A stretch of DNA of 50,966 bases. Origin: Candidatus Woesearchaeota archaeon. Its GTDB lineage: Archaea; Nanobdellota; Nanobdellia; Woesearchaeales; JABMPP01. Shown piece after piece: positions 24,866 through 50,966 of the stretch. Each line of letters begins with the position of its first letter. Position 1 is the stretch's first letter. Position numbers and translations under genes: made by a program. Under the pieces are notes generated by a model, which saw nothing but the letters and a program-made list of their open reading frames with translations, was not told the DNA's origin and searched no databases. The stretch spans positions 14,163 through 65,128 of the forward strand of contig JAGVYD010000018.1 of the NCBI GenBank assembly GCA_018303405.1, written 5' to 3'.

Positions 24866-25533
24866 TTCGATTCCACCTCTCCATTCATTTCATTTCGGAC
24901 ATTCTTGAATGCCCTGTTTCCTGTTTGGATCATTCCCTCAGGATCATGAAGAACAAGATATTCGCTGGCGTCTTTCCTTTTCAGTTCAGAAAAAGACTGC
25001 CTGTCAATGGCCTCAAACAGCAGGCCGTTTTCGGTGAAGAGTTTCTCCTTTTGCAAATCCTTCAGAAGCTGGGGTGCAGCCTTGCTGCCATTGAAAACCA
25101 GCTTCATTTCCAGGCCTTTGGAATTCTCAGCAATGTAGATGCAGTCAAATTCTGCCAGGCTCGGCAGCAACGTGGCATATGCCTGTGCCACTACGGGATG
25201 CTTTTTGGCATCTGCCAGCGACCAAATCTTCAGGATGGCTTTGTGGTAATCAGTCAAAGCCAACAGCCTCTTCGATGCAAAATTTTTTGTAATAGATATC
25301 AAGTATGCATAATCATCTGTAAGTGTGAAAAGGGCTCTCGGCTTGCCCTTGTCCCTGTTAGATATTTTCTTTTTTTTGACAAGGCCCGCTGCTTCAAGGA
25401 GCCTGAGCTGCTGGCTGATATTGGAGATTGTAGTGTTTGTCTTATGTGCGAGCTGAAGAGGGGAGAATTCGCCTGTAGAGAGATGAAAAAGGATATTCCA
25501 TTTTTGGTCTGTGAATAGCTGCTCCAGTTCCAT
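24862..25533 (-). CDS. Winged helix-turn-helix transcription regulator
   Basis: 223 residues. Residues ~1-75 form an ArsR/MarR-like winged helix: helices ending in FSPLQLAHKTNTTISNISQQLRLLE (quoted as helix 2, turn, recognition helix), then a wing KKKKISNRDKGKPRALFTLT. The remainder is a helical and mixed domain of unknown ligand specificity, without metal-binding Cys. An AAGGTGGG Shine-Dalgarno precedes ATG 25533. Its TGA overlaps the ATG of the small surface protein, so it very likely controls that gene. Its promoter is bracketed by ACTAAT and ATTAGT half-sites, consistent with autoregulation. It could also act on the distant paralogues, which share the operator. Confidence 0.9.
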   Translation of the reverse strand: MELEQLFTDQKWNILFHLSTGEFSPLQLAHKTNTTISNISQQLRLLEAAGLVKKKKISNRDKGKPRALFTLTDDYAYLISITKNFASKRLLALTDYHKAILKIWSLADAKKHPVVAQAYATLLPSLAEFDCIYIAENSKGLEMKLVFNGSKAAPQLLKDLQKEKLFTENGLLFEAIDRQSFSELKRKDASEYLVLHDPEGMIQTGNRAFKNVRNEMNGEVESK

Positions 25534-30686: not shown

Positions 30687-30798
30687 AAGTTCGGCATATT
30701 TCACGTTAATTCATGTTCAGTAAGAATGGGAATCATTAGTGCCCTTTAATCTTTTCATTGTCTTTTGAAAAAAGAGGGGCGCAAAGGGCGTAGATGTG

Positions 30799-36700: not shown

Positions 36701-39700
36701 ATTCAACTGCATCGTCATCAATCACATTCAATTACACGCCAAGCGACTCCACAACCGGCCTTGCAAATTGCACATTGGTGCTGGATACGGCAGCCAATTT
36801 TACTAACAGCACAATAACCAACAATCAGCCCAATTTCTTCAGCATATTTGGCATAAGCGGTGGCAAGCACAACTGGAGCGTCAATTGCACTGACTATGCC
36901 GGTTTCACAGGCAATAGTACCACCAGGAATTTCACGCTGGACGCGGGCGGGCCCGTGGTTGTCCTTAACTACCCGGTATCTCTGAACATTACTTCCGGAA
37001 ATGTGCAATTCAATTTCACAGCAACTGATGACACAGATGGGGTTGTTGACTGCAACCTGACCCTGGACAGTGTGGTAAACAACACCGCATTGATTTTGGC
37101 AACCAGCGGGGCTAATACGCTTTACACAATCACTGGATTGAACGATGGTGACCATGTCTGGAATGTCACCTGCTGGGATGACGCAAACAATCCAGGCGCT
37201 GCTTCAAATGAATCATTTACAGTCGACAAACCACCCAGGGTCACCCTGAATTTTCCAATTGACTTCAACGCCACAAACATGACATTGATACCATTTAATT
37301 ACACACCTTCTGATGCATATGATGTTGCGAATTGCACACTCTATCTGGACGGCGCGTTTAATGCGACAAACTACAGCATCACAAACGGTGAGCCAAATTT
37401 CTTCAACATTTCAGCATTGCTGGAGGGGAATCATTATTGGCAGGTAAATTGCTCAGACAGCAGGGGCTCGGTTGGCAATTCCACTTTTGAAAATTTCACA
37501 GTGGATTATTCCAAGATGTCCATCAACCTGAGCGCGCCGCCGAACGGCACCCTTTTCCAGTCAAGCAGCATAACATTCAATTTTACAGCGACGGACAACC
37601 TTGACCCGGGCTTGTCATGCTATATTACAATCAACAATGTCATTGAGGCATCTGGCATTGCAGCGACCTCAGGCTCAGTATCGACTACTCTGGTTCCAGG
37701 CTTGACAAACGGGTACAAATACTGGAATGTAACTTGCCAGGATGATGCCGGAAACCAGAACACCAGCCTGACCTGGGAATTTAATATCTCGTCTCCCACG
37801 ACGGTAAATCTTACATCCCCTGCAAACAATTACTTCCAATCCCTGCCAAACATTACATTGTATTATACTGCCAACAGCAGCAACGCAATGGCCAACTGCA
37901 GCTTATACATCAACAATGCCCTCAACCAGACAAATGCCACCCTGCTCAACACCACCGGCGGCCAGAATAATTTTACCCTGGGCGATTTAGGTGATAAGCA
38001 ATATAACTGGTCAGTCAGCTGCATCGACATCACAGCTTTGGCTGGCTCGTCAGAAAGGAGGATTTTTTACATTGATTCGGCAGCGCCGGAAATAGCGCTC
38101 AATTTTCCGTCGAACAATACAAACCATACTGCGGTAAATATCAGTTTTAATTTTACAGTATCGGATTTGCTGAGCACAAATTTCTCCTGCAATATCACCG
38201 TCGACGGAAATAGGAATAATTCCCAAAATATCATTGCCTACAACAATATTCCCGCCGAGCATAATATCAGCAATTTCAACGAAGGCTTCCACCAGTGGAA
38301 TGTTTCATGCAGCGACCTGGCAAACAATGGAAATTCGAGCGCAACGTACATTTATTACATCCGCGCCCCGCCGAGGGTTTCATTAGCTAATCCGCTGCAG
38401 AATTACACCACACCTTCGCAAGACATTAATTTCAGCTATATCCCGTATGACGCCTTCGGAATTTTCAACTGCAGCATTTATATCGACGACATTCTGAATT
38501 TGACAAATGACTCCATCATAACAAACAATTCGAATTATTTCAACATCACTGGAATAAATGAAGGCGTCCACAACTGGACAGTCAGGTGCACAGATTATGA
38601 TTATAGCGTCGGAAATTCCTCGGCCCGCAATTTTACCGTCGACATGACAGGGCCCAATGTCAGCCTGAGCTACCCCGCTCCTGGAGCAATTTTTCCGCAG
38701 GGAACTAATGTTACATTTAATTTCAGCGCAGTGGATAATTTTGACAACATCCTGAAATGCAACCTCTCATTGGACGGAATAGTCAATGTTTCCGGAATCT
38801 CTGCGCAGGCAAGCCAAAATACCTCAGTTACAGTCTATGGCTTAAACAGCTCAACACATTTTTGGAATGTTACCTGCGAGGACAATGCGGGGCTCACAGG
38901 GGCAAGTGCCACGCGCAACCTGACTTTGCAGGAAGTCCCTGAAATTTATCTTGCATCTCCACTCACTGGCGATGGCTTCACTGATCCAAATGTGACGATG
39001 TCCTACCAGGTATTTTCGGGCTATGACCTTCTCAGTTGCGGGCTTATAGTCAATGGGGAGACTAACCAGACCAACACTTCAAATGTGCAGCTTGGCGGCC
39101 CATTGAGCTATTTCAACCTGACAAATCTCACAGAAGGAAGGTACAACTGGACTGTGAACTGCACAAATGTGAATGGAATCACAGGAACTGCGACCGAGGA
39201 ATCATTTGACATAGACAACAGGACCCCGCTTCTGTCGCTGGTTTCACCTTCAAACAATAGCGTGAATTACCTGTCATATATGGACTTCAAATTTAATGTA
39301 ACTGACAATGTCGATGCCAATCTCAGCTGCAACCTGAGTGTCGATGGAACTATTAATCTTTCCAATTTCGGGGCAACAAGCAATACAACCACCACAAAGA
39401 CAGTCAATGATTTCATTGAGGGCTACCATTACTGGAATGTTACCTGTTGGGACAATACAGGCTTCACCAATGAAAGCCCGACCTGGCAGTTTTACCAAAA
39501 TTTCTCACCTTCCCTGACATTGGACTTCCCTGATGACGGTTACTTCACAAGGCTCACATCCCTGGATTTCAATTTCACCCCGCTGGACAATGATGCCAGC
39601 CTCCTGGAATGCCGGCTAAATATAGACAATACCCAGAACGGCTCAACATTCATAACACCGGCCTCAGGAGCACAGTTGACCAGGACTGTAAATGATTTCA

Positions 39701-42700
39701 ATGAAGGCATCCATAACTGGACTGCCAATTGCACTGACAACGACCTGAATGTCGCGGCCCCGGCGTGGAGAACATTCTACATTGATCTCACTGGTCCTGG
39801 CATTTACCTGCACACACCAAATGGGACAAGCTACTCCTTTGATGAGGTCATTTTCAATTACACGGCAATAGATAACTTTGGCACAAATCTGAGCTGCAAT
39901 CTTACAGTGAACAACACCCTGCGCTCCCAGGGAATGAGTGCCACATCAAACCAATACTATAATTTGACAGTGGCCAACTTCACTGATGGAAGGCTTTACT
40001 GGAATGTTTCCTGCACAGACCAGGCCGGCAATTCTGGGAGCAGCACGTTGTTCAATTTTTCAATGCAAGTTCCGCCCACAGTGATTTTAGGGCACCCGCC
40101 CAACAATACCAGGGCCAGCGACACAAATTATTCATTCAATTTCACGCCGAACGACAATTCTTACAACATCAGCAGTTGCACTTTGGTTCTCAATGATATT
40201 GCCAATAACACAAACAGCACATTGGGCTATGGCCTTGAAAATCTTGTAAGCGGCGACTATCTTGTCCATGGGAGCTATGACTGGACGGTAAATTGCACCG
40301 ACCATGCAGGAAACATCGGGACCAATACAACGGCCAAAAGGTTCTATGTGGATCTTTTGGGCCCGGGGTTTGCAATGACAACCCCCTATGATGGTGAGAC
40401 ATTCAACTATGATGATATTTACTTCAATTTCACAATATTTGAGCAATTCGGCTTCAACAACACAGTCAATTGCAACCTGACACTGGATGATATTGTGAAT
40501 AGGAGCGTATCATCATATCCTGGGACTCCCAATGCTGTAGAGATAGGCAATATTAGCCAGGGCGACCACAATTGGACACTTGTCTGTTGGGATGACCTGA
40601 ACAATACAAACACCAGCTCCACCTTAAGCTTCATAGTCAATGCGCCTGACCTGGTTATTACGCCAGGCAACATCACTTTTAACAACACCAATCCGGACAT
40701 CAATGACAGCATTTTAATCAATGCCACAATTTATAATGTAGGAGGGATAGAAGCTGATAATTTCGATGTTTATTTCTTCGACAGGTCCACATTTTTGGGG
40801 ATTGCCAGTGTGGCCACATTGGCATCCGGGACCAGCACCACAGTAAATGCAACCTGGAACATCACAACCGGATTCCGTAGCATAACAGTGAATGTCAGCT
40901 ATGCCGGTGTGGAACTAAATTATACCAACAACAATGCCACAAATAACCTGACCCTGCTTTATCCGAGGATTACAGACCCAGTGAATAGCACGTGGAGCCG
41001 GATTACCTCGAATAATCTCAATATCAAGGTCAATGATTACCTGAATAATTCCCTGAATTACACTGTTTATCTGGACAATGCGCCAAATTCCACATTCGAA
41101 TTCACCGACGGGTTGGAAAGTGTCTACATTGCGAACCTGAGCGAGGGCAAGCACACTTTCATTGTGGAAGCCCTTGCGCCAAGAGCTGATGTTGAAGGCA
41201 TTGATATTGGTTTGACCCGCAGGAAAAACAGCTCGCTCTTCGCGCTGAATGTTGACCTGACAAATGCCACCATATCCTGGGAAACCGCCAACAACAGCTG
41301 GCATTCAGATTTTAGCCCGGAAGTCTGGTTTAATATTACCGACAATCTTGCGAGCCTGATAAATTATACAGTTTACCAAAACGGTTCCTATTATGTCCAA
41401 AATTCAACAAGCAACGGCACCAGCATTCATGTGAATCTTTCAACACCATCCCAAGGCCCCTGGGAAATAATCATTGAGGCCGCTGACTTGGCCGGGAATA
41501 AGAAAAATTCCACTTTCCTGAGAGTGAATATAGATACCAACCCTCCATTCCCCAATATCACCACAGCAAACAACACGAATTCCTCGGATATAACCCCTTT
41601 GATTGAATTTAATATTACAGATAACCTTGCTCCCACATTAAATTACACATTCTACATAGATTTCATGGCAGTGAGCACTAATGGCACTGTGAGCAACGGG
41701 GCAGCTGGCGCCAATTCATTGACTTCTCTTGCAGATGGCTATCACAACATCACTTTGGAGGCAAAGGACCTGGCAGGAAACAGGCAAAATTCCTCATACA
41801 TCACTATTTTTATTGATTCAACCGCGCCTGTCATCACCATCCAAAGCCCGACAGATGGCAACGCATTTGGCTACATCATAGATTTGCTTGCCTCAATTAC
41901 TGACGCCGGGACTGGCCTGGACACAGCGTCTTATGCATTGCTCAATGACTCAGGAAGCATTTACCAGGCTGGAAGCCTTAATGCGACAGGCAATTTTGAT
42001 GCATGGTGGAATTCCACCATAAACGTAACTGAGGCTGCGGATTATATTTGGGTGATGTTCAATGTAACTGCCAATGATACCTTGGGCAACAGGGCCAATG
42101 CCAGCGTCCGGTTCATTGTTGACAACAGGAAACCAAGCATAGTATTCTATGCTCCTGACGGCACAGATTACAGGGATGATTTCTACCTCGACATGAGGAT
42201 ACAGAACAGAAACCTCACAGTTTCCGCTTATAACATAACCAATTCCACTTTTGAGAGGATGGCAAACAACAGCAATATGTCAATTGGCCAGCAGTATTAC
42301 AATTGGTCAGACTTGATCTCAATTCCTGTTGCGACTTGGCCTGAGGGAGTTTACAATGTTTCAGTCTATGCTGTTGATTCAGTCGGCAATAACAGGACAA
42401 GCTACAATTATTTCAGGATAGACAGGACCCCTCCATCTGTAATTCTCTACGAGCCCATTGCATTCTATAATACATCAAGCCAGAGTGTTTATTTCAATTT
42501 CAGCGCAAATGACACATTTGATGCGCAAATGATCTGCAATCTGACAGTCAATGGTGCCATTGTTGCACAGGATATTCAGGCCAATAATGGAACATATGCA
42601 AATGTCACGGTGAATGGCCTGGCCCAGGGGCCAAAAATGTGGAATGTCACTTGCCAGGACAACGCTGGCAACAATTTCACAAGTGAATCAAGGAATTTCA

Positions 42701-44457
42701 CAATTGACCTTACAGGGCCGGGCATGCTGATGAATTCGCCGGTAAATGGGTCCTGGTCCAGTGCAACGATTATTGACTTTTATTTTACTCCATCTGACAA
42801 CTTATTGGAAGTGGAAAGCTGCACCCTGATCATAAATTCCACTGCAAATGTGACAAATAGCACCATCAGTATGGGCCAGCAAAACCAGTTCCAGCAGGCA
42901 TTCCCGGAAGGAAGCTATACATGGAGCGTCAATTGCACAGATGACGTGGGCAATGAGGGCACAAACAGCACCCAGTGGCAGTTTTATGTTGATTCGAGCG
43001 CGCCCAATCCTGTCATAACATACTCAAACAACACATGGCTTTCAAGCATTTATCCGGATATCACATACACAATATCAGACAACCTGGACACACTGCTTAA
43101 TTGGACTTTCTATGTGAATGGGACTGCCAACATCTCCGGAAATATCAGCAACGGAGGCTCTGGCAGCCAGCTGGTTGGGCCAATGGCTGAAGAGGATTAC
43201 CTGATAATTCTGGGGGCCTTTGACAATGCAAACAATACGCGGAATTCCAGCTTCATTGTAGTGCACATTGACACCACCTCTCCTAATGTCACTCTGCTGG
43301 CACCTGCAAACAACAGCAATTTGTCCAACACCTACACCACTTTCAATTTCACTTCCGCTGACAATCGCGCAGCCCAATTATACTGCAATCTTACAATTGA
43401 CAACGCAATAAATGTATCCGGAATAATAATAAATTCAACACTGAACTACAGCCAGTATGTTTCAGGGTTCAATTCAGGCCTGCATAACTGGAGCGTGTCC
43501 TGCAGGGACAATGCCTCAAACACAGGCACAAGCCACACTTTCTACTTCAATGTCACGCCTCCTGACCTTATCATAACGACAAACAACATAACTTTCAATG
43601 AAAGCAGCTTTGTCGAGGACAAGCCATTCATTGTGGAGGCAAATGTCTGGAATATCGGAGAAGGGGCGGCAAACAACTTCACAATAGGGTTTTACCTCGG
43701 TGACCCTGATAATGGCGGCACACAGCTTGGCAATAGCCACCTGGCCAGCCTGCAGCCGGGTGAAAACATAACAGTCAACACTACAGTGACACTTGATATC
43801 GGGGATTTTTCAATTTTTGTGCAGGTTGACAGGAGTAATTTGGTGTCTGAGGAGATAGAGACAAACAACAAGGCCAACAGGACAGGCAATGTCGGGGCCT
43901 ACCAGATAATTTATGGCAATCTTTCAGGTGATTTGGTATTAAGCCTGAATGCGAGCAAAATTTTTAGGTGGGACTTCAGCAATTCCACTTCCGGCACGGT
44001 TTTTGCAATTGACAGCGACAGCCAGGTTGTCTGGAGCAGCCTTAAGGCATTGGGAATCAATTCAACGGATGAGAATTCTACAAATGATTTCTATGAGCTT
44101 GACTCAGGCCTTTTGATGGGCAATCTCACCGATTCAATCAATGTTACCTGGACTGACCACGGCATTCCCCTGAACAGGACAAACCTCACTATATTTGGCA
44201 AGACTGTAATCAATGTCCCGCTTGTCAATACCACCAACACAAGTGTGTTTTCAACCGGGATTTTATGGGACAGCACCGATGCGCCGGCTGCAGAGTACAA
44301 CGGGACCCAGGATGTCATATTCATAGCGCCAATCAATAAGGCGCAGCCCGGCAGGTATGGCACATATGACTTTGAAATGAGGATACCTGCAAGGCTGAGG
44401 CAGTACATACAGCCTGACCTTGACACAAGCGTAACAGTTTATGTGGAGCTAAGATAG
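30799..44457 (+). CDS. 4552-residue giant Ig-array surface protein with CARDB domains and a C-terminal YGN/Y-x-E-L domain
   Basis: The start is ATG 30799 (GTG 30796 adjacent). Signal peptide ~6-27. Residues ~45-345 hold three related ~90-residue beta domains; to ~1850 come assorted beta domains. Residues ~1857-3280 are 15 Cys-paired Ig-like domains of two alternating types. A CARDB-like domain (PDLVITPGNITF, ~3282-3387), about nine more Ig domains, a second CARDB (PDLIITTNNITF, ~4254-4360) and a ~185-residue C-terminal domain (~4369-4552) follow. The last domain matches the three small secreted proteins and the protein at 44475-46694 and ends VTVYVELR. There is no membrane anchor, so attachment must be through a domain, probably the last. 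Sequons are extremely dense. Expected role: a long extended stalk or adhesin. The next gene starts 17 bp later. Confidence 0.93.
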   Translation: MKRKWIGLVGILLMLALYATAIGGFGLADSGILGSSINTLNTIDSQESSADFIGSKNILTAPTVQLGAPLAIDFARLSAANASWKHVNFSFLDLTIRHGTQVYKFFAKDNKKEVSFTPKTEGVYVLEILDTASGLSHSETFSAAIDLQQAKKSAGSAAQKIPVILTDKDSYELGETVKVISSNIEKYAMLSGMQANSFDKLAIEIVSDEATVRFLGKQNSTSFYTPKSIGIYAVIAKLGERVIANSTFYVSVTGGGLPGSAGHGILDIYMPKTEYRINEPVLIEFSVAVGQDYEFYIESGEDKYSFLGLISNKVSFVPKSAGNYTARLLRAGKEVAVRKFQVSAQEYQGEDSIPADIPAGDTAESQNVPSGATTRLPPFSPGQPVEILFDFRDRIERKNILDKLFRITSIESATGYVEGQESSNGLAVALEPAERNRFVMKISGTENLPDGVYAAVVVAAYGQSQAVEKIFFEISGLTDSVTVGKQEVKSELRPGELPLAPAEEEDESAIVAKFVAAKFTSEHVISTNIDFSKELEGKRSVLNDIFATSVIDTINIFVNEDPQKELFDVQLDYLGKESFALKLTKKQEVKRGLYKVILVASSGQQQIRKDLILDLDSRTENSISQLEDYGLIETKTRLDQQLASSMNGNEFKVIDKDGKGIKSRARLRGMSDGKADVDVQLTEPKVNLISVRGMDTQKSAFIKFDTASKHMPAPPGEKWEKVYAIDPAGIDAQSMAISAIAEGMYLYKCKEWDFAAQQCSGDWAKIKDLVIGQPYIVDVGPNDPAFAESGLIAVNTNKSIFLPGEAAFVAIGLLNNQGNMVCDADMALSITDPSGLVTSFDVDSGGITVSPECSYYGPTSLPDYYATYNVGGTGTYIINVTANWTQDGAPNNAIRISNFSVQSSVPFDISRITATRIFPYVPYDVNITVVAIQDYSGPVYEYVPASFAIEPSPNFDVNTVNQTKVLSWIADFSAGNSYKLSYTYDAPDISPYFYMIGPLEIGNFSEARQWEIASDDKVLQSVAMTAPATNQSILLGATFTITCTPTCTGSGANPTVTHTYQWCEDIDCSGGANTISTSSGTSDELSVANNPESNACNQAVSDTITARNVGTVYIRCSSTANAVTKTSSPTIVVNVSGDVGPYLSSSQTPNPAKNTTSIYQNTAVLFNATWEDDYGLIGWKFSWNNSGSWVNVTSQSFTGLINVSNITLTVTAAEGSIIGWLFYANDTANQTSNSGISTFTVASTTDTIAPSITNFRISPNVTVSGGIVYINATITDNYGVNGAYAEIQFPNTSKFNYSMSNSGSSYYYAHTTDVGGNFSVILYAVDGNSNYNITANDRKYFNVTSYIFTNTFYYAPGETVTVKGIGFSSNNNVTLNILDNTWQSASGYPDTTVQTNRTGGFTTTWQIPTSSTSIRSGNYTINATDNKLSWLRNTTGMAVVLKPYVAIENDDDGTGSVLYEVNNSDDVPAVVNSAGGSEDYLEMNWSNGFSGLYVINKVEVLIQHYASAAETMYIQWWDGSAYQSVCTIATTTTEQFSNCTISGIDTIAEANSISLRYTDNNGAAARDMSVDFIYMLINYSLDTNTHVIIQKPSRPKNFGNFTDTGNNHAYFGGDSARPPVSIASGQELTSSDYSMLISSDNQKFSSINETVGSVAYHVFNFRVPETNATLSEFRVVYEGFASRGTSAQERAVGYSVFLWNYTASSYSLIQNTSWSTLGTDVVFNRSFANPTYFINATGDVSLLVEAMNATGAGVGEGRSNLTTDYVALELTLHPLLSGIQIINFTATDGDTISACNYRYRNGTDTLGHIFMNNTVGYDWINYSDTNDYGDGFYNIDANCTDSLGNYNASETIYALIDNTNPTVTLNSPVNLANYTTSSVTLSWTASDDQPGNLKCDILINGAKNTSHPIVSRNGVAQEYSLSGLNDGWYIWNVNCSDLIGNYDAATERNFSVDTSRPTVQLNWPDIDYSTASSSITFNYTPSDSTTGLANCTLVLDTAANFTNSTITNNQPNFFSIFGISGGKHNWSVNCTDYAGFTGNSTTRNFTLDAGGPVVVLNYPVSLNITSGNVQFNFTATDDTDGVVDCNLTLDSVVNNTALILATSGANTLYTITGLNDGDHVWNVTCWDDANNPGAASNESFTVDKPPRVTLNFPIDFNATNMTLIPFNYTPSDAYDVANCTLYLDGAFNATNYSITNGEPNFFNISALLEGNHYWQVNCSDSRGSVGNSTFENFTVDYSKMSINLSAPPNGTLFQSSSITFNFTATDNLDPGLSCYITINNVIEASGIAATSGSVSTTLVPGLTNGYKYWNVTCQDDAGNQNTSLTWEFNISSPTTVNLTSPANNYFQSLPNITLYYTANSSNAMANCSLYINNALNQTNATLLNTTGGQNNFTLGDLGDKQYNWSVSCIDITALAGSSERRIFYIDSAAPEIALNFPSNNTNHTAVNISFNFTVSDLLSTNFSCNITVDGNRNNSQNIIAYNNIPAEHNISNFNEGFHQWNVSCSDLANNGNSSATYIYYIRAPPRVSLANPLQNYTTPSQDINFSYIPYDAFGIFNCSIYIDDILNLTNDSIITNNSNYFNITGINEGVHNWTVRCTDYDYSVGNSSARNFTVDMTGPNVSLSYPAPGAIFPQGTNVTFNFSAVDNFDNILKCNLSLDGIVNVSGISAQASQNTSVTVYGLNSSTHFWNVTCEDNAGLTGASATRNLTLQEVPEIYLASPLTGDGFTDPNVTMSYQVFSGYDLLSCGLIVNGETNQTNTSNVQLGGPLSYFNLTNLTEGRYNWTVNCTNVNGITGTATEESFDIDNRTPLLSLVSPSNNSVNYLSYMDFKFNVTDNVDANLSCNLSVDGTINLSNFGATSNTTTTKTVNDFIEGYHYWNVTCWDNTGFTNESPTWQFYQNFSPSLTLDFPDDGYFTRLTSLDFNFTPLDNDASLLECRLNIDNTQNGSTFITPASGAQLTRTVNDFNEGIHNWTANCTDNDLNVAAPAWRTFYIDLTGPGIYLHTPNGTSYSFDEVIFNYTAIDNFGTNLSCNLTVNNTLRSQGMSATSNQYYNLTVANFTDGRLYWNVSCTDQAGNSGSSTLFNFSMQVPPTVILGHPPNNTRASDTNYSFNFTPNDNSYNISSCTLVLNDIANNTNSTLGYGLENLVSGDYLVHGSYDWTVNCTDHAGNIGTNTTAKRFYVDLLGPGFAMTTPYDGETFNYDDIYFNFTIFEQFGFNNTVNCNLTLDDIVNRSVSSYPGTPNAVEIGNISQGDHNWTLVCWDDLNNTNTSSTLSFIVNAPDLVITPGNITFNNTNPDINDSILINATIYNVGGIEADNFDVYFFDRSTFLGIASVATLASGTSTTVNATWNITTGFRSITVNVSYAGVELNYTNNNATNNLTLLYPRITDPVNSTWSRITSNNLNIKVNDYLNNSLNYTVYLDNAPNSTFEFTDGLESVYIANLSEGKHTFIVEALAPRADVEGIDIGLTRRKNSSLFALNVDLTNATISWETANNSWHSDFSPEVWFNITDNLASLINYTVYQNGSYYVQNSTSNGTSIHVNLSTPSQGPWEIIIEAADLAGNKKNSTFLRVNIDTNPPFPNITTANNTNSSDITPLIEFNITDNLAPTLNYTFYIDFMAVSTNGTVSNGAAGANSLTSLADGYHNITLEAKDLAGNRQNSSYITIFIDSTAPVITIQSPTDGNAFGYIIDLLASITDAGTGLDTASYALLNDSGSIYQAGSLNATGNFDAWWNSTINVTEAADYIWVMFNVTANDTLGNRANASVRFIVDNRKPSIVFYAPDGTDYRDDFYLDMRIQNRNLTVSAYNITNSTFERMANNSNMSIGQQYYNWSDLISIPVATWPEGVYNVSVYAVDSVGNNRTSYNYFRIDRTPPSVILYEPIAFYNTSSQSVYFNFSANDTFDAQMICNLTVNGAIVAQDIQANNGTYANVTVNGLAQGPKMWNVTCQDNAGNNFTSESRNFTIDLTGPGMLMNSPVNGSWSSATIIDFYFTPSDNLLEVESCTLIINSTANVTNSTISMGQQNQFQQAFPEGSYTWSVNCTDDVGNEGTNSTQWQFYVDSSAPNPVITYSNNTWLSSIYPDITYTISDNLDTLLNWTFYVNGTANISGNISNGGSGSQLVGPMAEEDYLIILGAFDNANNTRNSSFIVVHIDTTSPNVTLLAPANNSNLSNTYTTFNFTSADNRAAQLYCNLTIDNAINVSGIIINSTLNYSQYVSGFNSGLHNWSVSCRDNASNTGTSHTFYFNVTPPDLIITTNNITFNESSFVEDKPFIVEANVWNIGEGAANNFTIGFYLGDPDNGGTQLGNSHLASLQPGENITVNTTVTLDIGDFSIFVQVDRSNLVSEEIETNNKANRTGNVGAYQIIYGNLSGDLVLSLNASKIFRWDFSNSTSGTVFAIDSDSQVVWSSLKALGINSTDENSTNDFYELDSGLLMGNLTDSINVTWTDHGIPLNRTNLTIFGKTVINVPLVNTTNTSVFSTGILWDSTDAPAAEYNGTQDVIFIAPINKAQPGRYGTYDFEMRIPARLRQYIQPDLDTSVTVYVELR
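36370..40640 (+). repeat. Array of 15 Ig-domain coding repeats in alternating two-domain units
   Basis: The first Cys codon of the even-numbered domains falls at 36769, 37333, 37897, 38470, 39037, 39610 and 40177 (188, 188, 191, 189, 191, 189 residues apart). That of odd domains 3-15 falls at 37051, 37618, 38188, 38758, 39328, 39895 and 40471. Even domains read NC[TS]L near the first Cys and W-x-V-N-C-T-D at the second; odd domains read [LF]SC-N-[LI]-[TS] and W-N-V-[TS]-C. Linkers alternate too: odd domains end PPRV-like, even domains end D-x-x-x-P-like. Confidence 0.85.
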
Positions 44458-44474
44458 ATTTGAAGCCAGAAAGA

Positions 44475-46694
44475 ATGGAAACCCAAAAACAGATTTCGAA
44501 AAAACAGAAGTTTGGTTTGAAGTATTTGAAAATCCTCCTGATGATATTTCTTTTTGCCGCATCATTGCAGCTTGCCTCTGCGCAGGCGCCCCAGCCGCAC
44601 AACATCCAGGGAAGGGTGTTTGCAGACAACAGCAAAACTACAGGTGCTGAAGCAAACCTGCCTGTTATTTTGAATGACACCTCGAGCGGGAATGTTGTCC
44701 TGACATATACGCAGAATCCTGGCCCGCCACCGCTAAAAGGCATTTATTCGGCAACAATACTTGGCATTACCGGAGACTTGATTATAGCAACATCCTACAA
44801 CGCCACGCATTACGGCACTGCCAATACAACCCTTCTTTCCACCACAACGGCCTTGGATGTGATCTTGAACCAGAGCAGGCCCAGCGAAACCAATGTCACC
44901 ATATTTTTCCCGGCAAACAACAGCGTCAGGAATACAACAGATGCTTTCAACCTTACTGCAAACATAAGCATTCTTGGCGCGGATGCATCTGACTGCAATG
45001 CAACCATTTCGTTTTCAGGTGGATATGCTAATATCACCCAGGATCAGCAATTCAGAATAGAGCTCGGCGATATTGCCTATCATTCCCACAGGACAGCTGC
45101 CTGGAATATTTCAGGCATAAAAGAGGGCACCCTAAATGTAACAGTCAGTGCATCCTGCGGAACAGATGGCCTGAATCTCCAGGGATTAAGCAGCTATACT
45201 ATTCTCCTGGACATACAGGATACTACACCACCGACAATCAACCTTGAATACCCTGCCAATGGCACATTCACAAATTTCCATAACCTGACATTCATGTACA
45301 ATGTTTCAGAAAATACCGGGCTTGAAAACTGCAGCCTGTATATAAATGAAGGATTAAATCAAACTTCCTCAAATTTGGAAACTTATGCCCGGCATAATTT
45401 CACCATCGAGGAAGCCCAGGACGGGGAATATGAATGGTTTGTTTCCTGTTTTGACAACAGCACAGGCAGATTGCAGGGAAACAGCACACGAAGGGCAATT
45501 ACAGTTGATACAGTTGCACCTGGCATTTCTCTTCTGTCACCCTTCAACAATTCAGTCATGGATTCATACAGCCTTTTGTTTGAATACAATGTGACCGACA
45601 GCTTTGAAGTGAGCAATTGCTCATTTATCCTGCAGGGCCAAACCGTTGAAATAAACACCTCGATAAGGCTGAACCTTTCAAATAACTTTTCCAGGTCCAT
45701 TCCCGGAAACGATTATGCATGGCAGGTCAATTGTACAGACAGGGCAAATAATCCCGGGGCTTCCCCGTTCTTCAGGATTCGCACTCCAGATTTCAAGGTA
45801 TATTCAGAGGACATTCACTTGAGCGTCGCGAACCCTTCTGAGAAACAGAACATAAGGATCAATGCAACCATTTTCAACCTTGGCTCAGGAAACTCAAGCC
45901 TGAACCTGACTGCCCAATTTTTTGAGGGCCATCCCTTATCAGGCGGATTTCAGCTTGGATCGGACTTTTCCCTGAACATATCAGCTGGCGGCAATGCCTC
46001 TGTTGAAGTCGATTATTACACACGGATAGGCTCTGCGACAATTTTTGTTGTCCTGGACCCGGTTTTATCAACAAACGGCTCATTAATCGAGTCCAATGAA
46101 TCCAACAACATTGCGAATTTTACAATTAACATCACTGCTTACTCCACATTTTATGGCAGCGTCATTTCAGACATTTTCCTTGATACATCCCAGAACCTGA
46201 CAGTGTTTGCCTGGATGAATGCAGTCGGATATGACGGAAATATATTTGCCACAGATTCGGAGAGCATTGTTAACTTCAACAATCTCACGGCATTAGGCTG
46301 GGATTTAGCACATTTGCCGAGGCTGGAGGATTTCGCCGAGCTCGACCTGAGAATAAACATGACTAATTTAACTGATTCCGTTAATTCCACCTTTACTTAC
46401 CTCGGCGGGGCCAGGTCATTTTCTAATTTTACAGTTTTCAACTATGGAATCCTTGATGTCCCTGTCATCAACAGCACCAATAATTCAGTCTTTCAGACTG
46501 GGATCCTCTGGGACCATTCAGATGAGAACCAGGGGCAGTTTAATGGGACACAGGATGTGGTTTTCATTTCAAAAATTGTCTCATCTGCATACGGACAATA
46601 TGGCAATGTGGATTTTGAAATCAGGATTCCCTCAAGGCTGAGCGCATTGGCCCTGCCTGAAGGGAGTGTCAAGTTTTACACAGAGCTCAGCTGA
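44475..46694 (+). CDS. Secreted surface protein with N-terminal PHN module, two Ig domains, CARDB and C-terminal YGN/Y-x-E-L domain
   Basis: 739 residues from ATG 44475; a TTG at 44460 is less likely. Signal segment ~16-36 (LKILLMIFLFAASLQLASAQ). The PHNIQGRVF module and following region (~40-245) are paralogous to the 497-residue protein at 12113-13606. Two Ig-like domains (~252-435), a CARDB-like domain (~437-554) and the C-terminal domain (~554-739) match the end of the 4552-residue giant: FYGSVISDIFLD, VPVINSTNNSVFQTGILWD, FNGTQDVVFI, VDFEIRIPSRL, KFYTELS. It is thus a hybrid of two protein families in this window. No anchor. It lies 17 bp after the giant and is probably cotranscribed; a UUCG hairpin follows. 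Confidence 0.9.
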   Translation: METQKQISKKQKFGLKYLKILLMIFLFAASLQLASAQAPQPHNIQGRVFADNSKTTGAEANLPVILNDTSSGNVVLTYTQNPGPPPLKGIYSATILGITGDLIIATSYNATHYGTANTTLLSTTTALDVILNQSRPSETNVTIFFPANNSVRNTTDAFNLTANISILGADASDCNATISFSGGYANITQDQQFRIELGDIAYHSHRTAAWNISGIKEGTLNVTVSASCGTDGLNLQGLSSYTILLDIQDTTPPTINLEYPANGTFTNFHNLTFMYNVSENTGLENCSLYINEGLNQTSSNLETYARHNFTIEEAQDGEYEWFVSCFDNSTGRLQGNSTRRAITVDTVAPGISLLSPFNNSVMDSYSLLFEYNVTDSFEVSNCSFILQGQTVEINTSIRLNLSNNFSRSIPGNDYAWQVNCTDRANNPGASPFFRIRTPDFKVYSEDIHLSVANPSEKQNIRINATIFNLGSGNSSLNLTAQFFEGHPLSGGFQLGSDFSLNISAGGNASVEVDYYTRIGSATIFVVLDPVLSTNGSLIESNESNNIANFTINITAYSTFYGSVISDIFLDTSQNLTVFAWMNAVGYDGNIFATDSESIVNFNNLTALGWDLAHLPRLEDFAELDLRINMTNLTDSVNSTFTYLGGARSFSNFTVFNYGILDVPVINSTNNSVFQTGILWDHSDENQGQFNGTQDVVFISKIVSSAYGQYGNVDFEIRIPSRLSALALPEGSVKFYTELS

Positions 46695-46717
46695 CTCATG
46701 CTTCATCACATCACGCG

Positions 46718-46753
46718 GCGCCTGCTGGCTTCGGCTGGCGGGCGCTCGCGCCC
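46718..46753 (+). terminator. UUCG-loop hairpin after the giant/739-residue unit
   Basis: 46718-46729 pairs with 46734-46745 over 12 positions (three G-U) around a TTCG loop; an alternative stem GGGCG-CTCG-CGCCC uses 46740-46753. CCCCTTTT follows. GC content is far above the surrounding AT-rich spacer. It could be a terminator, an mRNA 3' end stabiliser, or a two-state structure. Confidence 0.55.
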
Positions 46754-46802
46754 CTTTTCATCATGGCACCGAATATTGGACTATTACTTCTGAATCATAA
46801 CA

Positions 46803-47015
46803 AAAGTATTTATACTGTTTTGGCAAAGATAGATTAGGGGACAGTCGCGTATGGATAGGGATGCAGCATAATTCCTGGTAAGACAAGGGGCGCTTGAGAA
46901 AGCTGAAAATATATAAAATCACTATATGGTCCAGTTATTTTGATTGTATGGAACATGCAATTGCAATACAATATATATAGTGTATCTATACAGAGTATGT
47001 ATATAGTGTATGCCC
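46803..47015 (+). promoter_or_regulatory. Promoter region of the DUF5752 gene with three TATA-like boxes and nested repeats
   Basis: TATA-like elements: AAAAGTATTTATAC (46803-46815), GAAAATATATAAAA (46905-46918) and ATACAATATATATAG (46966-46980). ATTGTAT (46943-46949) and ATACAAT (46966-46972) form an inverted repeat around palindrome TGCAATTGCA (46956-46965). TATATAGTGTAT occurs twice (46974-46985, 47000-47011), 26 bp apart. A transcript from the first box would have a ~200-nt leader. No tRNA-like fold was seen in 46695-47037. Confidence 0.5.
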
Positions 47016-47037
47016 ATGTAGAAAAAAAGAGGGGAAG

Positions 47038-48438
47038 ATGGTTAAGGAATTGATTAAGAGTGTTCTTGGCAAAGGAGCAGACAACGCTGATTCTGTTCCA
47101 GATGAATTGCCAGGCCTTGTTGAGGATGCAAAGCCAGCAGCCGCGCCTGCAAAAAATGCTCCCCCTGACGAGCTGCCGGACCTTTCTCCAGTCAGAACAG
47201 CAAAGCCCGCGCCTACCCCTGCCAAAGAAGCAACCAGGCCCGAGCCACAGCCCATTCCGGACAAGGACAGGACTGTGATTGAGCGTGAGATTGAGATGAT
47301 GCACGAGGAGCTTAATTCTGATCCCGGACCGACAGTCCAGCCCATGGCAAAGCAGGGCCAAGATGATTTTTCACAGATAATAGCCAAAGCTGCCTCCGGC
47401 CCCGGTCCAGAAACGCCAGTCCAGGATGCACAGTTCAGCATGAGGAGCATGGCAACCAGGCTGGAGGATGAATCAGGTTCACCGGGATATTTTGCGCATC
47501 TTGCCAAAGTCATTAAAGAGCAGGGATTCAATGAAAGCCTTCTTTCCCAGGACATGTTCCAGAGGATGAAAGAACACTATGATGTCCAGGAGCATGAAGA
47601 AAAGGGGGTTTTCACAGGGGATGAAAAGGAGCTGAACGCCAAATTGCTGTCAAAGCTCGAGGAAATGAAAGAGGTTGAGGCAAAATGGCAGGTGCAAAAG
47701 CAGATACTGGAAGAGGACAAAAAATTCTTATTGCAGAGGGAAAATGAGATAAAAGACAAGATAGAGGGTTTGAAAAGGATAAGCAAGGAATTAAAGTTCC
47801 ATCAAAATGTTCCGCCTGAAAGGTATTTTGTCCTCAAGAACAAGATAGTGATACGGAATGTGAAGGAGATGATTGATATCCTAAAGGTGATAGATGATGC
47901 CACTTTCAGCCACCATGTAAATGAATACAAGAATGATTTTGCTGAATGGGTCAGGTTTTCAGTGCGCGATTTAAGGCTCGCGGAAAAGATCTCCGGCATC
48001 CGCGGCAGGAAAGGCTTGATAACCGCAGTTGAGGATGAGATAAAAAAGGAAGAGGAGGATTCGCATCCAGTCAGCTATTTTTTCAAGGCCGCGCTCGAGC
48101 AAAAAAATGCTGAGGAAAAGCCTGACGGAAAACAGGACCATGAGACAAAAGAAAAGGCAAAGCCGGCGCCAATATCGCTCTCCGACCATGAGGATAAGCA
48201 GGTAATCCCGGAAAATTATTTCAGGCTGAAAAGCGGTGAAGTGATTAAGAGGATTGAGGAGCTTCCCAGGGCAATGCGGAAAATTTCAGATGATGAGTTT
48301 TACCATCATGTTAATGAGGAAAAAAATGATTTTGCTGATTGGGTGCAGCATGTTTTCGGGGATGAAAAGCTTGCAGGCTATATCAGGCCAATAAAGAACA
48401 GAAAAGAGCTGGTTGACTTTCTGGACATTTTTCTTTGA
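47038..48438 (+). CDS. Cytosolic protein with coiled coil and two DUF5752 domains
   Basis: 466 residues, no signal peptide. Residues ~1-150 are Pro/Ala/Glu-rich and probably disordered; ~190-250 form a coiled coil. Two copies of an archaeal domain matching DUF5752 lie at ~259-336 and ~390-465: each has YF-x-L-K then H-H-V-N-E-x-K-N-D-F-A-[ED]-W-V and a following D-x-x-L-A. DUF5752 has no established function to my knowledge; the conserved HHVN...NDFA-W core suggests a small interaction or regulatory fold. A GAGGGGAAG Shine-Dalgarno sits close before ATG 47038. It is the only cytosolic gene between two surface blocks and may regulate or tether them. The downstream gene is 400 bp away with its own promoter. 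Confidence 0.87.
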   Translation: MVKELIKSVLGKGADNADSVPDELPGLVEDAKPAAAPAKNAPPDELPDLSPVRTAKPAPTPAKEATRPEPQPIPDKDRTVIEREIEMMHEELNSDPGPTVQPMAKQGQDDFSQIIAKAASGPGPETPVQDAQFSMRSMATRLEDESGSPGYFAHLAKVIKEQGFNESLLSQDMFQRMKEHYDVQEHEEKGVFTGDEKELNAKLLSKLEEMKEVEAKWQVQKQILEEDKKFLLQRENEIKDKIEGLKRISKELKFHQNVPPERYFVLKNKIVIRNVKEMIDILKVIDDATFSHHVNEYKNDFAEWVRFSVRDLRLAEKISGIRGRKGLITAVEDEIKKEEEDSHPVSYFFKAALEQKNAEEKPDGKQDHETKEKAKPAPISLSDHEDKQVIPENYFRLKSGEVIKRIEELPRAMRKISDDEFYHHVNEEKNDFADWVQHVFGDEKLAGYIRPIKNRKELVDFLDIFL

Positions 48439-48590
48439 ATTTGCCTGAAATTTATCGACGATGATGAAATTCTTGGAGATAATTGTATGGCAAAATTCAA
48501 TGTGGGAGGGGATAAATGCCTTTTCTGCTATTAACACCGTTAATAATGAGTTTTAGACTAATGATTATGTACTGCATGTTTAATCTATTC

Positions 48591-48636
48591 TAAATTAGTT
48601 ATAAATACTTTATTTTGAATTAAATTGGTTATAAAT
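48591..48636 (+). repeat. Two 16-bp direct repeats TAAATTrGTTATAAAT, 30 bp apart
   Basis: 48591-48606 and 48621-48636 differ at one base and repeat with a 30-bp period, about three helical turns. They lie upstream of the TATA box of the small surface gene at 48838 and may bind an activator. Confidence 0.5.
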
Positions 48637-48670
48637 GCCTATAATAAAATACCTATTTATAAATTAAAAA

Positions 48671-48711
48671 ACGAAACATTTATATAGGAGTATACATATT
48701 AGTATACTAAT
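48671..48711 (+). promoter_or_regulatory. BRE/TATA promoter with the 14-bp palindromic operator at the transcription start
   Basis: ACGAAACATTTATATAGG is a near-ideal BRE/TATA (48671-48688), predicting a start near 48707. The palindrome ATTAGTATACTAAT occupies 48698-48711, so a bound protein would cover the start. ACTAATGATTAT at 48557-48568 adds a further half-site. The leader is ~130 nt. The gap 48439-48837 shows no gene. Confidence 0.68.
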
Positions 48712-48837
48712 TTCCGATAAATGTTACCAATTGTGTTAATCGGATTTTAATTTAGTAAAAAATCATCCAGTATGGATAAATGATAAAAAAGTGAAAGAAA
48801 AATGGAAGGCAAAAGTCCTGAGAAAGAGGTGTAGGTG

Positions 48838-49641
48838 ATGGAAATCAAGAAAAAATCAATTTTAGTTCTGCTTGGTTTGTTTGGCATTCTCGCTGCATTG
48901 TATGTTTATGCCGCACAAGTGAGTCAGCCGCAGGGGCCAGACTCAATTTCCGTTCTCAACTCTGGAAGATATCAGGAAAAAAATACCTCTGTCACAATTG
49001 TGGCTGAAGCAGGAAACGTCACCGAACTGTTAATAAACGATACAAGGTCTACAGAATCATGGCAAGGTTACTATGGAAACATTTCTGGTACAATAACCTT
49101 GGATGATGCATCAAACTATACACTCTACAGCTGGAGCGCAGCAAGCCCAACCGGAGAAATATATGCAACCAACATCTCAACAGGGATTGCATGGGCTACT
49201 GTAAAATGCCTAAACTTCAACGGTGCAAGCAGTTCTGACACAATCAGTTACCAAACTATGAATGAAAGCTCGCTTGAAAATGATTACAGCATCAATTCCA
49301 CAGACAATGACGGCTTCAGCGAAACCTTCACGCAGACTTACACATGTGGTGGCGGAGAAGCAGCATGCTTCAAGATTGGACAACTGACAGTGCCCAATGC
49401 AACATGCCACATGGTCACAACCTATGTGGATGAAGCAGCACAGACTGCAAGCTTCAAGGAAGTGCTGTTGACAGACAACGTGACCTCAGGGCTCATCTTC
49501 GCAGCCTTGCTCGAGGACAATGTTGATGGCTTCAAGGGAGGCGTTGACGCACACGACTTCCAGATGCTCGTTGCAGAGAACGGCCATCCGGGCTTTGAAA
49601 CAACAACAACCAACTATTATTTTTACATAGAGCTGGCGTAA
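48838..49641 (+). CDS. Small secreted surface protein, stand-alone YGN/Y-x-E-L domain (paralogue 2)
   Basis: 267 residues from ATG 48838 (GTG 48835 is in frame), with a GAGGTG Shine-Dalgarno. Signal segment ~7-24 (ILVLLGLFGILAALYVYA). The mature part carries SISVLNSGRYQEK, SWQGYYGNISGTITLDDA, SPTGEIYATN, FSETFTQTY, EVLLTDNVTSGLIFAALLED, HDFQMLVAENG and C-terminal NYYFYIELA, collinear with 24125-24865 and 49739-50512 and with the C-terminal domains of the two large proteins. An extra Cys pair is present (YTCGGGEAACF). The strong promoter with operator and the poly-T terminator after the gene suggest an abundant, regulated product. Inference: a structural subunit of the surface layer or a fibre. 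Confidence 0.9.
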   Translation: MEIKKKSILVLLGLFGILAALYVYAAQVSQPQGPDSISVLNSGRYQEKNTSVTIVAEAGNVTELLINDTRSTESWQGYYGNISGTITLDDASNYTLYSWSAASPTGEIYATNISTGIAWATVKCLNFNGASSSDTISYQTMNESSLENDYSINSTDNDGFSETFTQTYTCGGGEAACFKIGQLTVPNATCHMVTTYVDEAAQTASFKEVLLTDNVTSGLIFAALLEDNVDGFKGGVDAHDFQMLVAENGHPGFETTTTNYYFYIELA

Positions 49642-49651
49642 GGCCTTGCTC

Positions 49652-49670
49652 ATTTTTTATTTTTTTTATT
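49652..49670 (+). terminator. Poly-T terminator after the small surface gene
   Basis: ATTTTTTATTTTTTTTATTG follows the stop codon by about 10 bp, typical of archaeal termination. Partial read-through could feed the next gene, for which I see no clear promoter. Confidence 0.6.
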
Positions 49671-49738
49671 GTTATCAGTACAGTGCAAGAACATCAGCAA
49701 GAGAATGTAACGGTACCTGCACAGTGCAGCGAAATGAA

Positions 49739-50512
49739 ATGGCAAAGAATCATCATAGAAACAGGATAGCAGATGTCACCGGGATTCTGGCTGCTATATC
49801 ATTATCACTTCTGATTATATTTGTTGTATTTGCGGCAACTCCAGAAGGCCCAACTGTCACCTTAGTCGCCAACAAGACCAAGGCAACAACAGCCGCGCAG
49901 ATAGTCAATTACACCGGCGGAGTTGACCAGAACATTTCAGGTGGGTACATATTTGCAATCAACCTGAATGCATTGCAGAAAAACGTCAGATGGAAAGCCT
50001 ACTATGGAAATGTGAGCGGTACCCTGACCCTGGATGATGCCTCTGGCTATACAATATATAACTGGCCTTTGCCTGGCACAACCCAGACTGGTTATGTTTA
50101 TGCAACAAGGGCCTCTGGAACAATAACGTGGGCTTCAGTAGCCTGTGCAACAGTCGGGCAGATAGAAACTGAGAATTTTGCAATCAACCATACTGCCAAC
50201 CCAAATGACAACATAACAAGCACATTCAACTCAACAAACCACACCAGCTTCGTGGTTGCAGGCACCACATTGAGCAATTGCAGGTCCACTTCAATCTATA
50301 AAGCTGATGCACAGACAAACCAGACAGACCTGTCTGATTTCCAGGAGATAATCATACATGATGGGACAAACGTCATCTATGGGACCAATATAGAAAGCAG
50401 TGTTTCAGCATATGACAACAGCCCTGCTGATTTCCAGCTTATAGTCCCGGAATATGGATTGGTAAATCCAACTGGGTCAATCGCATATTACTTTTATGTA
50501 GAATTGACGTAA
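49739..50512 (+). CDS. Small secreted surface protein, stand-alone YGN/Y-x-E-L domain (paralogue 3)
   Basis: 257 residues from ATG 49739. The frame is open from TTG 49646, but that segment covers the terminator and is not credible. Membrane/signal segment ~12-32 (TGILAAISLSLLIIFVVFAA). Mature motifs: GPTVTLVANK, RWKAYYGNVSGTLTLDDA, GYVYATRASG, ITSTFNSTNHTSF, DFQEIIIHDGTNVIYGTN, ADFQLIVPEYG, AYYFYVELT. It is the most diverged of the three small paralogues in the middle but keeps both ends. It follows paralogue 2 by 97 bp and precedes a third secreted gene by 58 bp, so the three may form one graded transcription unit with different subunit amounts. Confidence 0.88.
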   Translation: MAKNHHRNRIADVTGILAAISLSLLIIFVVFAATPEGPTVTLVANKTKATTAAQIVNYTGGVDQNISGGYIFAINLNALQKNVRWKAYYGNVSGTLTLDDASGYTIYNWPLPGTTQTGYVYATRASGTITWASVACATVGQIETENFAINHTANPNDNITSTFNSTNHTSFVVAGTTLSNCRSTSIYKADAQTNQTDLSDFQEIIIHDGTNVIYGTNIESSVSAYDNSPADFQLIVPEYGLVNPTGSIAYYFYVELT

Positions 50513-50541: not shown

Positions 50542-50570
50542 ATGGCATATGAAATGGAAGTGAAATGCAC

Positions 50571-50966
50571 ATGAAATTGGCAAATAGTAAGGTAGAAATT
50601 GCAGCTATTCTGGTTATCACAGCTCTTGCAATAATGCTCGGTTATGCTCCCTATTCCCTGGATGTTAAGGCTCTCGGCTTGTTCAGCACAAATGATTCAG
50701 CAATATCCAAGGCAAATGTGACCAATGAATATCCGAATGTCAGGAATGTAAGGCTATATTCCAACCTGTCATTTGATGATATCGAGCTTTACCCGGCCCA
50801 ATTGACAAAAGTCTACTGCAATGCCACAATTGACGACGGCAACGGTTACATTGACATAAATTCCAGCAATGCGACAATCTTCCATACAAGCAATGTGAGC
50901 ACTGACCCTGATGCGCCAACTGCGCATTATACAAATGGCAGCTGCAGGCTCTGGCAGGGCTCAGGC
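50571..50966 (+). CDS. Secreted surface protein, N-terminal part (runs off the window)
   Basis: 132 codons are visible, open to the window end. ATG 50571 (in-frame ATG 50565 also possible; GGAAG lies upstream). A hydrophobic signal segment (IAAILVITALAIMLGYA) is followed by a beta-rich part with YCNATIDDGNG, SSNATIF and HYTNGSC. These match the domain at residues ~254-330 of the 497-residue protein (ITCNATITDYN, VNASLY, HYSNSSC), so it is probably the start of a relative of that protein. Its position directly after two YGN-domain genes suggests a partner subunit. Confidence 0.8.
   Translation, partial: MKLANSKVEIAAILVITALAIMLGYAPYSLDVKALGLFSTNDSAISKANVTNEYPNVRNVRLYSNLSFDDIELYPAQLTKVYCNATIDDGNGYIDINSSNATIFHTSNVSTDPDAPTAHYTNGSCRLWQGSG

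Follow-up and report, generated by a model that had tools for sequence, protein, structure and literature searches.

One domain family shared by small secreted proteins, anchorless giant proteins and a membrane ATPase in a conserved archaeal gene system

How are giant surface proteins that lack a membrane helix held on the cell? We know of no way in which this is achieved, and the question is raised by a stretch of 50,966 nucleotides from Candidatus Woesearchaeota archaeon (GCA_018303405.1, contig JAGVYD010000018.1, positions 14,163–65,128, forward strand), hereafter the window, which encodes two such proteins together with small secreted ones. A preliminary description of the window had claimed that the small proteins are free-standing copies of the C-terminal domain of the giants, and had proposed a polymer of small proteins that takes in the giants as heterosubunits. 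This shared domain of about 185 residues, which makes up most of each small protein, is here called S in the small secreted proteins and G at the C-terminus of the giants; S proteins of the WQGY type are referred to as type Q (SQ) and those of the WKAY type as type K (SK). As shown below, the domain family joins pairs of small secreted proteins, giants and a membrane motor in a conserved gene system. The relevant features of the window are the following (Ig, immunoglobulin; aa, amino acids; pLDDT, predicted local distance difference test; pTM, predicted template modelling score):

30796..44457, plus strand: giant 1, 4553 aa, with a signal peptide, many Ig-like units, CARDB and a G domain (translation, profiles)
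43561..43878, plus strand: CARDB domain directly before the G domain of giant 1 (E 6e-14)
43882..44454, plus strand: G domain at the extreme C-terminus of giant 1 (profile; AlphaFold2 pLDDT 90.9, pTM 0.87)
44460..46694, plus strand: second G protein, 744 aa, with a signal peptide, HNI-GRV, Ig-like units, CARDB and a G domain
46122..46691, plus strand: C-terminal G domain of the 744-aa protein (profile)
48838..49641, plus strand: SQ, signal peptide and S domain (about 49042–49638; AlphaFold2 pLDDT 89.4, pTM 0.85)
49739..50512, plus strand: SK, second gene of a Q-K pair, S domain at about 49976–50509
24125..24865, minus strand: SQ, the third small S protein of the window, S domain at about 24673–24128

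Homology of the small proteins and the giant C-termini

All five open reading frames (ORFs) lie where the preliminary description had placed them; the three small ones encode 246 aa (24125–24865), 267 aa (48838–49641) and 257 aa (49739–50512), and the 4553 aa of giant 1 are counted from a GTG at 30796. Searching the window with a profile of its three small proteins, as had been proposed, returned the two giants as the next-best ORFs (E 1.4e-6 and 9.6e-6). A second profile, built from 58 small proteins of several genomes and no giants (the S-only profile, model length 176), matched the giants with 54.0 and 53.3 bits (E 1.2e-16 and 1.9e-16). In both, the match covered model positions 7–175 of 176 and ended one residue before the stop. 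The isolated 190-residue C-termini scored 59–62 bits against the S-only profile, compared with at best 8.2–8.5 bits for composition-preserving shuffles (about 1,000 per C-terminus).

Comparison of 118 S with 31 G sequences by hhalign gave a probability of 98.8% (E 9.6e-17) over 163 columns, reaching the last residue. AlphaFold2 monomer models of S and G, compared by the order of their elements without superposition, both run through four strands, one short strand and two helices to a last set of strands, the final one being the C-terminus. Neither of the two outcomes named beforehand as speaking against the relationship, partial alignment or different folds, was thus found. S-only profile, hhalign and shuffles agree, and the relationship between S and G is confirmed far beyond chance and from end to end.

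Some details of the preliminary description needed revision. The alignment is collinear throughout, as stated, but the motif strings were too strict as written: the first, [YF]GN[VIL]SG-x-[IL]-x-L, fails in the protein at 24125 and in that ending at 46694, and D-x-[VI]-N-x-T-F matches only two of the five proteins. "Free-standing copies" is right as to homology but imprecise, as S and G have a sequence identity of 21–23%, form separate sister clades and differ by two invariant S cysteines and by about 50 residues preceding the shared core in S, all of which are absent from G. The two cysteines suggest a disulfide in S. The reported lack of a C-terminal membrane helix holds for the whole family: none of 212 S domains and none of the G domains exceeded 1.6 in a 19-residue window on the Kyte-Doolittle scale.

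The position of the domain is strict. Of the 305 ORFs whose 3' end is complete, 293 have the end of the domain 0–5 residues from the stop, independently of protein length, from ORFs of 235–330 aa up to thousands of residues (the longest G ORFs have 8809 aa), and conserved residues, Y-x-E-L, lie at its extreme end. No cleavage motif and no further segment was found after the domain. At the other end, a heuristic scan identified an N-terminal hydrophobic segment in all 212 S proteins, followed in 210 of them by an A-x-A-like site, as evidence of a signal peptide.

Known families offered no counterpart. No Pfam or NCBIfam family was matched by more than one of the 118 S members, and only one of the 31 G members had a Pfam match. 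These single-member matches, including one to a tail of the type IX secretion system (T9SS), were weak and were judged to be chance. Neither a fold match (E ≤ 0.001) nor a sequence match to the PDB was obtained for S or G, and a search of the viral folds in BFVD with S gave no match. A viral origin was also considered and rejected, as 38 pattern matches in viral contigs included no relative. On the strength of these searches, the domain family and its gene system appear to be new, and the domain is a candidate new protein fold. The domain was found in 82 of 371 sampled genomes of the phylum and in 22 of 59 genomes comprising the window's own and 58 of the same order, with 1–9 copies each. A genome scan with an alignment of S sequences alone gave named loci from Woesearchaeota, Pacearchaeota and other Nanoarchaeota. 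The family is widespread in Woesearchaeota and Pacearchaeota, archaea that are tiny and for the most part uncultured.

A membrane ATPase with the same domain and its gene cluster

Where the domain is not C-terminal, the protein is in most cases about 1100–1700 aa long. It has an N-terminal membrane helix, then an S-type ectodomain and carboxypeptidase-regulatory Ig units, and after another membrane helix an ATPase of the HerA/FtsK/VirB4 type (DUF87) in the cytoplasm, as in the motor of SPEARE giants. The S profile matched the ATPase ectodomains with 31–55 bits, and hhalign aligned S with the ectodomain over 178 columns (probability 98.7%). This copy of the domain lies near the N-terminus and not at the C-terminus. 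The module can therefore do without a free C-terminus, and this speaks for an interaction module rather than for a signal in the tail. Judging from its architecture, the ATPase, which the preliminary description had missed, is the probable membrane seat of the system. Two variants support the membership of further parts: a membrane-anchored S-type domain fused to a domain like that of the neighbouring protein p257 (L176:3576–4832; likeness judged by eye), and a membrane protein (L177) in which the S domain is combined with a cytoplasmic part of another kind.

The window's own genome contains an S-domain ATPase at the end of contig C14 (L153:9036–11717), where it is broken at the ATPase, and a fitting tail at the start of contig C1. 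A second ATPase-type protein, without an S domain, lies at the end of contig C22. The last 99 bases at the ends of C22 and C14 (L042, L153) are identical, which indicates an assembly break at a module common to two ATPase genes; motor modules of nearly identical sequence probably occur in the genome with different ectodomains. A SPEARE-like protein of 4197 aa is encoded on contig C9 (L151:3334–15927). It has one membrane helix at the N-terminus, motifs of S8-type serine proteases and Ig-like repeats, and a further membrane helix before an ATPase of the HerA/VirB4 kind; its ATPase region is 41% identical to that of an S-domain ATPase. The protease motifs are present although later work doubted protease domains in SPEARE proteins. 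In an order-level relative (G023), contigs C41, C93 and C97 contain open frames of 15809, 11928 and 9175 aa with the same ATPase module, which are very large even among DPANN giants.

Across the 371 genomes, S and the ATPase occurred together in 54, singly in 19 and 7, and were both missing from 291 (p 1e-40), while S and G occurred together in 56, singly in 17 and 7, and were again both missing from 291 (p 5e-43); for ATPase and G the p-value was 8e-37, with presence thresholds set by hand throughout and p-values that ignore the kinship among the genomes. Two gene orders recur. The first is G-(G)-D-SQ-SK-W-Hb-SK-Ha-SQ-SK-W-p257 and the second c1L-A-c13-CC-SQ-Ha-SQ-M50. The window matches the first: two G genes are succeeded by D, SQ and SK, and the contig breaks off within W, while contig C22 resumes the order with the remainder of W, then SK, Hb, SK and M50. 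By gene order and co-occurrence, S, G and the ATPase form a conserved gene cluster that includes the window. The remaining members and neighbours in the window are:

47038..48438, plus strand: gene D, 466 aa, two DUF5752-like domains (E 1e-12), no signal peptide seen
50565..50966, plus strand: W, N-terminal part, cut by the contig end (C-terminal part at L042:1–150, the start of C22)
24862..25533, minus strand: Ha, winged-helix gene (ArsR/MarR-like) that overlaps the SQ gene at its start (Ha-SQ order recurrent)
25872..27575, minus strand: s567, surface protein, one membrane helix at the C-terminal end followed by a short tail in the cytoplasm, without a match in Pfam (conserved neighbour, 28 loci)
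22482..23255, minus strand: p257, membrane-anchored WNLIS/GYW-domain protein (conserved neighbour, 17 loci)
12113..13606, plus strand: W-like secreted protein, 497 aa, a W paralogue in the same clustering family

Gene D lies between G and SQ in many genomes, and the DUF5752-like domain of which it is made also occurs in the cytoplasmic tail of the ATPase (E down to 1e-27; 18 of 28 S-domain ATPase entries). In 34 of 50 cases the Q-K pair is followed by W, a secreted protein of 300–330 aa. Helix-turn-helix genes of two kinds lie between the S genes at many loci (e.g., L075, L103, L131; window 24862–25533; L042:1261–1899), which suggests switching between alternative sets of surface subunits. The S gene cluster of some genomes adjoins a block of genes for ribosomal proteins (L073, L099, L107, L117).

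Further observations concern p257 and the beginning of the window. p257 (22482–23255) and the C-terminus of a 2270-aa protein (2878–9690) have WNLI..GYW motifs in common and are possibly a second pair of small protein and giant; a p257 profile did not detect the C-terminus of the 2270-aa protein. The large ORFs at 3–2909 and 2878–9690 overlap on one strand, and FEASTVAYRITLDNIAPGVRLDGPG is found at the start of both. They may represent a single giant gene that a frameshift has split, or the assembly may have been joined there at a repeat.

Subunit types and the role of the domain

In a tree of the domain, the G domains group in a single clade separate from S (support 0.998), and the S domains comprise a K clade (WKAY motif) and the Q-type proteins (WQGY). 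Where S genes are adjacent, Q was followed by K 54 times and K by Q once; the loci of related genomes are not independent in these counts, and the bias spans most of the named genomes. Both types are present in 52 of the 62 loci with at least two S genes. Many small subunits are repeatedly partnered in the genome with one or two giants.

We consider the shared domain to be an extracellular assembly module of a DPANN cell-surface apparatus, a reading whose chances we put at about even. The fuller picture is more tentative and the balance lies somewhat against it: a surface machine of an undescribed class might use one new fold as the subunit of a Q/K polymer, as the dock of giant adhesins and as the seat on a transmembrane HerA/VirB4-type motor. 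A single module would then connect the polymer, the giants at its tip or sides and the energised base in the membrane, with switchable subunits for attachment to or predation on a host.

A strictly terminal domain could also be a retention or sorting tag on the giants that is read by the membrane ATPase, with the S proteins acting as competitors, adaptors or processed carriers; its logic would be like that of the C-terminal sorting domains known from other secretion systems. Such a tag would fit the placement in S and G, the conserved final Y-x-E-L and the co-occurrence and gene linkage with the ATPase. We nevertheless regard it as unlikely. Most members of the family are free-standing S proteins, present several times per genome and encoded in fixed Q-K pairs, which a tag alone would leave unexplained; in the ATPase the domain is internal and needs no free C-terminus; and neither a cleavage motif nor a trailing segment follows the domain. 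The large number of paired S genes speaks more for a structural role than for a tag.

As an assembly module, the domain may work as follows. Q and K would be exported by Sec, with removal of the signal peptide, and the domain would bring them together as a hetero-oligomer or polymer. The G domain at the end of a giant would serve as its dock and leave the Ig rod directed away from the cell, and the structure would be seated on the membrane by the ATPase ectodomain, which could accept the same contacts. The ATPase may energise assembly or transport, with gene D acting on the cytoplasmic side, and several Q/K units with intervening helix-turn-helix genes might allow alternative versions of the surface to be switched. 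The reading in the preliminary description is in part supported: end-to-end homology, the predicted order of secondary structure, secretion without a C-terminal anchor and the genomic partnership agree with it. Polymerisation of the small proteins and docking of the giants through the domain are inferred. With the same domain outside the membrane on the ATPase, retention of the giants need not depend on polymerisation alone.

Several results weigh against this proposal. The ATPase was undetected in 19 and G in 17 of the 73 S-positive genomes, though most are fragmented metagenome-assembled genomes. No structural relative of the fold, in the PDB or among viral models, supplies a mode of assembly. 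Distances in the Q and K trees correlate (Mantel r 0.45, best of 2,000 permutations 0.17), but partnering was not significant when pairs were swapped within a locus (0.057); shared ancestry may explain most of the correlation, and specific co-evolution of Q and K was set aside. In the S monomer model, the segment before the domain is confidently placed and almost strandless. This segment, absent from G and the ATPase, had prompted the idea of donor-strand exchange through an N-terminal tail, which the model does not indicate. Finally, S genes had a median codon adaptation index of 0.41, compared with 0.71 for ribosomal proteins, in a comparison of four loci from four genomes with few genes.

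The codon usage also bears on two further explanations. Q and K could be the two main proteins of a surface layer (S-layer) with the giants anchored in the lattice, in keeping with Sec secretion, two adjoining types and several copies per genome; one- or two-protein S-layers are usual in archaea (PMC5744192). The weak codon bias of the S genes argues, indirectly, against an abundant S-layer, and a highly expressed one is unsupported by these few genes. The proteins are also small and anchorless, their distribution is patchy (82 of 371 genomes) and they have no fold match to any solved S-layer protein, and we find this explanation the least probable of those considered. Slightly better placed, though still quite improbable, are soluble or loosely bound proteins that bind ligands or the host (e.g., sugars or the host S-layer) and have diversified under switched regulation, with the copies on giants and ATPase likewise binding and no polymer being formed. 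Many divergent paralogues beside helix-turn-helix genes and a codon bias unlike that of abundant proteins are consistent with such a role. A constant last position in giants and ordered Q-K pairs followed by W would be unexpected of a ligand-binding domain.

Comparison with known systems

Type IV pili and archaella have their subunits, minor subunits and a membrane-associated ATPase encoded in one gene cluster, and the clustering of subunit and ATPase genes is similar here. Unlike their subunits, S proteins have neither a class III signal peptide nor an N-terminal helix stem, and 210 of 212 have the A-x-A-like type I site. The ATPase is HerA/VirB4-like (DUF87) and not PilB-like, and carries the subunit domain on its outside. 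In the large surface proteins handled by sortases, archaeosortases or T9SS, too, the extreme C-terminus is often formed by a conserved element. S and G differ from these by having no sorting motif, C-terminal membrane helix or basic tail, and the domain also occurs as whole proteins and in non-terminal positions.

The closest known giants are the SPEARE proteins of Nanohaloarchaeota, first read as having a restriction domain (Hamm et al., 2019; PMC6642349) and later reinterpreted with a VirB4/TraG-like ATPase (PMC10266531). They, too, are giants of DPANN archaea whose adhesive part lies outside the cell and which have a membrane helix and, in the cytoplasm, an ATPase of the same HerA/VirB4 class, as does the L151 protein, and the window giants also have a large adhesive region of Ig-like repeats (Ig-like, Big and CARDB matches). 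The window giants differ in having neither membrane helix nor ATPase and in ending in a G domain. The SPEARE combination of transmembrane helix and cytoplasmic ATPase in one chain is present in the S-domain ATPase and in L151:3334–15927, but the S-domain ATPase is short (about 1100–1700 aa) and carries the shared domain. The passages on SPEARE proteins consulted in PMC6642349 and PMC10266531 mention no S/G-type domain.

Archaeal threads (Saci_0406/0405; PMC9715654) are built from small Sec-secreted surface proteins that are independent of class III signal peptidase and, like S, encoded with a structurally related companion. In contrast, S has no sequence or fold match to any PDB chain (copies to 2026, in which the thread entry was not singled out) and no N-terminal donor strand is indicated in its monomer model. 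The passages on threads consulted in PMC9715654 name no giant or ATPase partner.

The window giants and the S proteins lack a defining feature of each family tested. By analogy, the logic of the system resembles that of pili with related major and tip subunits, and its motor resembles that of SPEARE proteins. No description of such a system was found among the open-access papers searched.

The domain family and the gene system are what appears to be new; the mechanism is a proposal. Through the domain, small secreted proteins of unknown function become linked to anchorless giants and to motor ATPases of the SPEARE type, three classes of genes that had stood apart. Each part of the conserved gene cluster can be tested separately, and the S/G/A domain profile is a marker for the apparatus in metagenomes. 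It has long been asked how archaea of the DPANN group attach to other cells and exploit them, and the domain gives a specific, testable answer to how their anchorless giants may be retained on the cell.

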